64,000 nucleotides of DNA from an uncultured Bryobacterales bacterium (lineage in GTDB: Bacteria > Acidobacteriota > Terriglobia > Bryobacterales > UBA6623). Each line of letters starts with the position of its first letter. Positions within the stretch are counted from its first letter, which is position 1. The translations under genes and the position numbers were made by a program. Below the pieces are notes generated by a model. That model was not told the DNA's origin, ran no database searches, and saw only the letters and a list, made by a program, of their open reading frames with translations. This document shows positions 20,263 to 21,980 of this stretch, one piece after another. The stretch covers positions 3,014,062 to 3,078,061 of the forward strand of contig OX638379.1 in NCBI GenBank assembly GCA_951813605.1, written 5' to 3'.

Positions 20263-20373
20263 GTGGCCAATTACGCCTATCTTCGAGTGTCCACCCACAC
20301 GCAGGACGTCGAGAACCAGAAGCTCTCAGTGCTCGACTATTGCAACTCTCAAGGCATTGCTCAGACCGGCTGA
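20263..20373 (+). pseudogene. Serine resolvase/invertase, N-terminal stub
   Basis: The GTG-started frame reads VANYAYLRVSTHTQDVENQ, then KLSVLDYCNSQGIA and a stop. It contains the catalytic Ser in YLRVST. This is the first 36 residues of a Tn3/plasmid-type serine resolvase (normally about 190 residues). At about 20371 the sequence switches into cas6e, so the junction truncates both genes. Confidence 0.8.
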
Positions 20374-20960
20374 TTTGGTCGCTCTTTGCCGACAGCGCGG
20401 AGCGTAAGCGGGATTTCCTCTGGCGACATGACGGGCAGAGACGCTTCTACACTCTCTCCAGCCGCCCGCCGCAATCCAGCGATCTGTTCAACCCGCCTGA
20501 GACCAAAATCTTTAATCCGGTTCTCCGGGCGGGCGATCGGCTGCAGTTTACCCTGCGGGCGAACGCCACCAAGGACCGTGCCGCGGTCAGCCGGATGGAG
20601 AAGACCGCTAGGCGCGGGAAGAGTCGGCGGGTGGATGTAGTGATGGATCTGCTCCGCACCGCCCCGCAGGGTGAGAAGCGCGCCGTGATCCGGGACCGCA
20701 CGGCACAGGCTGCCGCCGAGACCTGGATGACTTGCCAAGGAACTGCCAAGGGATTTGCACCCCGAATGACCATTGTCGAAGGTTACTCAACGATTGAGCT
20801 GGGCAACCGGCGCCGTCAGGGTGCGACGTTCGGCATTCTCGATTTGGCGGGGGAGGTCGCCGTGACCAAACCCGAAGCATTCCTGACTGCGCTGGCGGCG
20901 GGATTCGGTCGGGCCAAAGCCTGGGGCTGCGGCCTGATGTTAATCCGGCGGGTACGGTGA
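20371..20960 (+). pseudogene. cas6e: Type I-E CRISPR endoribonuclease Cas6e, N-terminus lost
   Basis: The frame (open from 20340) reads LIWSLFADSAERKRDFLWRH, FTLRANATKDR, RDRTAQAAAETWMT and, at the end, AFLTALAAGFGRAKAWGCGL. The Gly-rich terminal block and the W-x-LF helix are hallmarks of Cas6e, which cuts pre-crRNA in type I-E systems. About 19 N-terminal residues are missing. The junction with the resolvase stub falls at the position of the catalytic His of Cas6e (E. coli YQLHQGLW aligns to CSDRLIW), leaving Asp there. The remainder is intact and overlaps cas1 by 4 bp (GTGA). It is likely non-functional as an RNase. Confidence 0.8.
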
Positions 20961-21892
20961 TACTTCCAGGCCTGCCGCCGCCGAAGCCGATTCCACTTAA
21001 GGAACGCGCGGCGCTGGTCTTTGTCGAACGCGCACAGATCGATGTCGCGGACGGGGCGTTCGTAGCGATCGACGCCGATGGGGTGCGGACCCATATCCCG
21101 ATCGGGGGCATTGCCTGCCTGATGCTGGAGCCTGGGGCTCGAATCAGCCACGCGGCTATTGCCCTGGCGGCGAGGGCCGGAACCCTGGTTACCTGGATAG
21201 GCGAGGCTGGTGTCAGGTTTTATTCCGCGGGGCAACCGGGCGGGGCACGATCGGACAAGCTTCTGTGGCAGGCGCAGTTGGCGCTCGATCCGTCTGCGCG
21301 GCTGCGAGTCGTACGCAAGATGTACGCATTGCGATTCGGCGAAGACCCGCCCGTAAAGCGCTCAATTGATCAACTCAGGGGGATCGAGGGACAGCGCGTG
21401 AGACACACCTACCGGCTGCTAGCGCAACGGAATGGCGTCTCGTGGAAGAGACGCGACTACGATCCCGCCAACTGGAACAGCGCCGATGTTGCCAACCGGT
21501 GCCTGTCGGCCGCCACCGCCTGTCTGCACGGACTCAGCGAGGCGGCAGTTCTAGCCGCGGGATACGCTCCGGCTATAGGCTTCCTCCATACCGGCAAGCC
21601 ACGAAGCTTCGTCTACGACATCGCCGATCTGTGGAAGCTGAAGACGGTAGTACCCGAAGCTTTCCGCATCGCTGGCCGCGTGCAGAAAGGGAAGCTCGAC
21701 ATGCCGATTGAGCGGGCGGTGCGCTTGGCCTGTCGCGACAGCTTCCGCAAAACGGGACTCCTCAAGCGGATCATTCCAGGCATTGAGGAGGTGCTGGCCG
21801 CGGGAGAGTTGCCCCGTCCCGAGCCGCCACCTGATGCGATCGGACCTGCGTTCGAAGAGGAGCAGAGCGGCGATGATGGTTATCGTGGTTAA
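20957..21892 (+). CDS. cas1: Type I-E CRISPR integrase Cas1
   Basis: The 311-residue protein uses a GTG start overlapping the cas6e stop. It is collinear with E. coli Cas1, with the N-terminal beta domain [14 protein letters not shown] and [15 protein letters not shown], and the helical catalytic domain. The metal ligands are present: Glu in [16 protein letters not shown], His in IGFLHTGKP and Asp in [10 protein letters not shown]. Length is normal and no lesion is seen. Cas1 works with Cas2 to insert spacers. Here Cas2 is destroyed and no cascade, cas3 or array is visible, so this is a lone survivor of a decayed I-E locus. Confidence 0.92.
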
Positions 21893-21980
21893 TAACGTTC
21901 CCCCGCGCCTACGGGGTAGATTGGCAGTATGGTTGCTGGAAATCCGAGCCGGCGTTAGCCGCTGCCGCTACTGCGGATGA
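21873..21980 (+). pseudogene. cas2: Cas2 (type I-E), truncated after about 28 codons
   Basis: The frame overlaps the end of cas1 and reads [20 protein letters not shown], then LLEIRAGV, exactly the start of Cas2e. It then runs into SRCRYCG and a stop. From about 21955 the sequence is the 3' end of an unrelated convergent gene, so the break is a junction rather than a point mutation. A full Cas2e is about 90-110 residues. Confidence 0.85.

Follow-up and report, generated by a model that had tools for sequence, protein, structure and literature searches.

Type I-E CRISPR-Cas operons run in the order cas3-cas8e-cas11-cas7-cas5-cas6e-cas1-cas2 and are accompanied by a repeat array, and among the 11 genomes sampled from the genus studied here this arrangement occurs both entire and in ruins. 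In one sister species (G004, locus L017), the Cascade genes, cas1, cas2 and a long array of 82 repeats stand together and cas3 adjoins, while a second (G010, loci L018/L103) has the Cascade genes, cas1, cas2 and 29 repeats on a contig that ends before cas3, which is found on another contig. The I-E Cas1 of G008 is divergent and shares its contig with a Cas3 match and an array. The locus of G009 (L101, G009:C23, 8780-13721) is decayed, as cas8e-cas11-cas7-cas5-cas6e are open there, cas1 is a stub of ~50 codons, three mutually unlike repeats remain and both cas2 and cas3 are missing; elsewhere in G004 there is a further cas1 shard, 26 aa long. Loss and fragmentation of I-E systems are thus common in the genus.

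Outside it, the 66 loci of other genomes with genes for close Cas1 relatives are nearly all full operons or cut by a contig end. The exception, L077 from Xanthobacter autotrophicus AM5 (9274-11185), consists of a 5'-cut cas6e followed by a cas1 that ends after roughly 262 codons and runs on in frame into a transposase-like tail, the chimeric open frame measuring 405 aa; by its sequence, the tail looks like an IS256/Mutator-type transposase.

The locus described here lies in a stretch of 64,000 nucleotides (hereafter the window; bases 3,014,062-3,078,061 of a single-contig genome of 6,185,587 bases), the nearest named relatives being Acidobacteriota metagenome-assembled genomes labelled Bryobacterales/Terriglobia. 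It shares the cas6e-cas1-cas2 order and the gene overlaps with the intact operons of G004 and G010, but cas3, cas8e, cas11, cas7, cas5 and the array are gone, as are the N-terminus of cas6e and most of cas2. As in L077, which has no cas2 and no array within 10 kb, little more than a 5'-cut cas6e and cas1 is left. However, cas1 is cut and the HH pair of cas6e kept in L077, whereas in the window cas1 is whole and the HH pair lost, and the two ruins formed independently. A survey of Mycobacteriaceae (PMC10333696) described cas loci in which insertion elements, often adjacent, had truncated or broken up genes while others stayed intact, and the window shows the same mix of broken and intact genes in a different subtype and species.

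From our point of view, the locus very probably goes back to a complete type I-E operon like that of the sister species, was broken recently and no longer functions. Two events of recombination or deletion, in whichever order and by whichever mechanism, would have struck the 5' part of cas6e and the position after codon 28 of cas2e, leaving a cas6e'-cas1-cas2' fragment stranded between unrelated mobile and defence genes.

Layout of the locus and its two junctions

The module extends from 20367 to 21957 and comprises a 5'-cut cas6e, a whole cas1e and a 28-codon start of cas2e. The features are as follows.

19883-20020, minus strand: C-terminal remnant of an IS1380-type transposase, decayed and lying upstream of the resolvase stub (PF13701, 6e-07; DNA match to ISPme1-family transposases)
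20263-20361, plus strand: start (33 codons) of a resolvase/invertase-family serine recombinase, YLRVST serine motif kept (PF00239, NF009949)
20357-20367: left junction, resolvase/cas6e, where Cas6e has its conserved HH pair ahead of RLIW (alignments)
20367-20960, plus strand: cas6e starting at codon 37, the first 36 being lost, with an open frame up to the natural stop (PF08798, TIGR01907, tblastn)
20957-21892, plus strand: complete cas1e, GTG start, E144/H211/D224 kept (TIGR03638; alignment to E. coli Cas1)
21873-21956, plus strand: start of cas2e (28 codons), which overlaps the end of cas1 in the manner of the intact operon (TIGR01873 positions 1-28; alignment to sister cas2)
21955-21957: right junction, cas2e against the tail of an unrelated opposite-strand gene (alignment to sister cas2)
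21955-22329, minus strand: unrelated 124-aa ORF adjoining the cut cas2, no Pfam family over the cut-off (ORF list, profile search)

A preliminary description of this DNA had proposed a type I-E module truncated on both sides, in which cas1 is intact and keeps its three metal ligands and cas2 is interrupted after about 28 codons by an unrelated gene, and the profile matches and alignments bear this out. The cas6e remnant is recognised by PF08798 (7.2e-35) and TIGR01907 (6.9e-27), with both matches beginning at profile positions 24-27; its alignment to a sister cas6e begins at residue 37 of 233, and it is 75% identical to the cas6e of G004. Cas1 matches TIGR03638 (E=9.9e-106), is open over 311/311 codons, has E144, H211 and D224 in place and is 87% and 85% identical to the Cas1 of the intact operons in G004 and G010, respectively. 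The match of cas2 to TIGR01873 (8.2e-13) covers profile positions 1-28 of 87 and is followed by unrelated sequence up to a stop at 21978-21980. A Cas1-Cas2 adaptation module with a full-length Cas2e is hence not present, as the genome has no Cas2e match besides this fragment. The start of cas2 at 21897-21918 (GTTCCCCCGCGCCTACGGGGTA) is similar to the core of the I-E repeat (GTTCCCCGCACACGCGGGGATG); a comparable stretch is also seen in the intact cas2 of L017, and the likeness is probably due to chance, by way of the VPPRLRG codons.

The stub left of cas6e is an ORF (20263-20373) that matches PF00239 (E=6.7e-05, profile positions 2-32 of 145) and NF009949 (E=5.9e-06), and its residues 1-33 are 64-67% identical to plasmid 'recombinase family' proteins. 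As the resolvase N-terminal domain is represented by no more than the first 32 of 145 positions, the recombinase is incomplete. A six-frame search of the genome itself gives a match to the stub; none of the genome's three complete resolvases is the parent of the stub. A perfect palindrome (20211-20233; 23 bp with 9-bp arms, TTGTGGACG-GATAT-CGTCCACAA) lies 30 bp upstream of the stub and occurs once in the window. It was rejected as a resolvase site, being absent upstream of the homologous plasmid resolvases; the same arms have a single match on one viral contig (L145), and the stretch of it that was fetched holds no resolvase-like motif.

According to the preliminary description, the stub was joined to cas6e exactly at the catalytic His and the locus preserved a precise record of two deletion or recombination junctions. 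Both truncations are there, and the position on the cas6e side holds: DAHH precedes RLIW, RLMW or RLVW in 9/9 intact cas6e copies aligned, and the window has HCSD in its place (..HCSDRL.. vs ..DAHHRL..). One of the two HH histidines is the catalytic His of the Cas6e family (His20 in E. coli CasE). The stub frame ends at a TGA (20371-20373) and lies in a different reading frame from cas6e, so no fusion protein is implied. The claimed precision has to be relaxed as well. The plasmid recombinases continue with ..GIADLQFVED.. or ..GLADLVFVED.., the window with ..GIAQTG and a stop, and the left breakpoint can be placed to about 20357-20367 (~10 bp), where the resolvase homologues have GGCTGACCTGG or GCCGATTTA against CGGCTGATTTGG on the cas6e side; judged from these stand-ins for the true parents, microhomology may have been involved. 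At the right junction, identity to the sister cas2 ends at GCGGGCGT/GCCGGCGT, the valine of codon 28.

The rest of the system in the genome

The preliminary description had reported no cas3, Cascade or array, and this is true of the window and, with one qualification, of the whole genome. No match to cas5, cas7, cas8e or cas11 was found within the window, and in the genome as a whole the window cas1 is the only Cas1 of any type, with no cas8e and no match to the Cas3 of a sister species. The I-E repeat has 0 matches in the genome at up to 3 mismatches with two patterns, in a search that covered I-E repeats only and returned 82 (G004), 29 (G010) and 33 (G008) copies as controls with the same pattern. 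The qualification is a cas7e shard, a match below the cut-off at C1:708049-708186 (L100, 9020-9175) and 2.3 Mb from the cas1 locus, which is 51% identical to a sister Cas7e over 57 aa, compared with ~80% among intact copies, contains a gap and soon afterwards runs into a stop. It is an older, separate decayed piece.

By sequence, Cas1 and Cas6e are assigned to type I-E, but the locus is not a I-E system, because cas3, Cascade, Cas2 and an array were looked for and are missing. Most likely it does nothing now, as cas6e is without its N-terminal catalytic region, Cas2e is lost and there is no Cascade, Cas3 or array that could use or take up spacers.

Origin of the fragment

The genes that flank the fragment have no match at the I-E site of any of the three genus-mates G004, G010 and G009, and no conspecific genome was found whose site is intact or empty. 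Since the flanks match no intact locus fetched, deletion in place and relocation of a fragment would both fit.

As a variant of the remnant reading, it is possible, although rather less than probable, that the fragment was imported already broken by a mobile element linked to the resolvase or an IS. The dissimilar flanks would fit such an import, as would the resolvase stub and the IS1380 remnant to the left and the Mutator transposase to the right. On the other hand, neither terminal inverted repeats nor flanking direct repeats were found around 20263-21980, and the viral contigs contain no match to the window Cas1. We prefer deletion in place, but only slightly.

The region holds transposases together with defence-like genes. 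The defence-like neighbourhood (17540-28598) includes a fragment matching PDC-S15, a GmrSD-type gene (23078-24649) and a gene pair with weak matches to capP and capH (27033-28598). A pentapeptide-repeat protein built of a long 15-bp tandem array (25891-26919) overlaps with its frame the end of the Mutator-family transposase (24773-26047).

Age of the break and the intact cas1

One point speaks against a relic, namely that cas1 is fully open and its catalytic residues are complete. Codon models were fitted on the window, L017, L018, L019 and L020. The window-branch omega (dN/dS) is 0.050 against a background of 0.054 for cas1 (likelihood-ratio statistic 0.06) and 0.071 against 0.071 for the cas6e remnant (0.00), values that are approximate, like the neutral-tail figures below, given the high synonymous divergence on the window branch. 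Neutrality along the whole branch is rejected (statistic 35.2 for cas1 and 11.4 for cas6e), yet a neutral final part of approximately 0.02 substitutions per site for cas1 and 0.06 for cas6e is permitted (2 delta lnL about 3.8). With a tail of 0.02 substitutions per site, a stop would still be absent from 59% of neutral cas1 copies.

The cas6e remnant serves as an internal control, because without its N-terminal catalytic part and Cascade it can hardly be selected. As the frame of this dead gene is clean, the break must be recent relative to the branch, and this recency also explains the clean cas1 frame, so that no retained role is needed. An intact cas1 hence does not point to a retained function, the dead cas6e being equally unrelaxed. 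The survival of cas1 in both the window and L077 is in part a matter of ascertainment, since cas1 was the search query.

It could nevertheless be imagined that Cas1 was kept alone after the loss of the system for a job outside CRISPR, e.g. the processing of branched DNA in repair. The open frame, the complete active site and an omega of 0.05 agree with this idea, as does the finding that E. coli Cas1, in vitro and with Cas2 left out, acts on branched DNA (PMC4574026). We nonetheless regard it as very improbable, given that the adjoining non-functional cas6e is just as free of stops, frameshifts and relaxation and that a scan of 20000-22400, weak evidence in itself, revealed no sigma70-like promoter. 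It is also very improbable that, in this Acidobacteriota lineage, Cas1 would be a domesticated stand-alone DNA-processing enzyme, free of Cas2 and CRISPR. A casposase or stand-alone Cas1 was likewise considered and rejected, as the protein belongs to the Cas1e clade, remnants of cas6e and cas2e adjoin and there are no terminal repeats. That the junctions are assembly errors in a genome with a complete operon is highly improbable, because the assembly is one contig of 6.19 Mb and a misjoin would have left cas3, cas8e and repeats elsewhere in it, where none are found.

Overall, the recent remnant of a complete I-E operon is an ordinary CRISPR relic; nothing hints at a new function, and nothing at the locus supports a retained role of Cas1. 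It adds one more case of CRISPR loss, whose age can be roughly bounded, and within one genus the I-E system can now be seen intact (G004, G010), reduced to the Cascade core with three repeats (G009) and stripped to cas1 (the window genome). The dead cas6e beside a perfect cas1 is also a caution, in that an intact orphan cas1 need not be functional.
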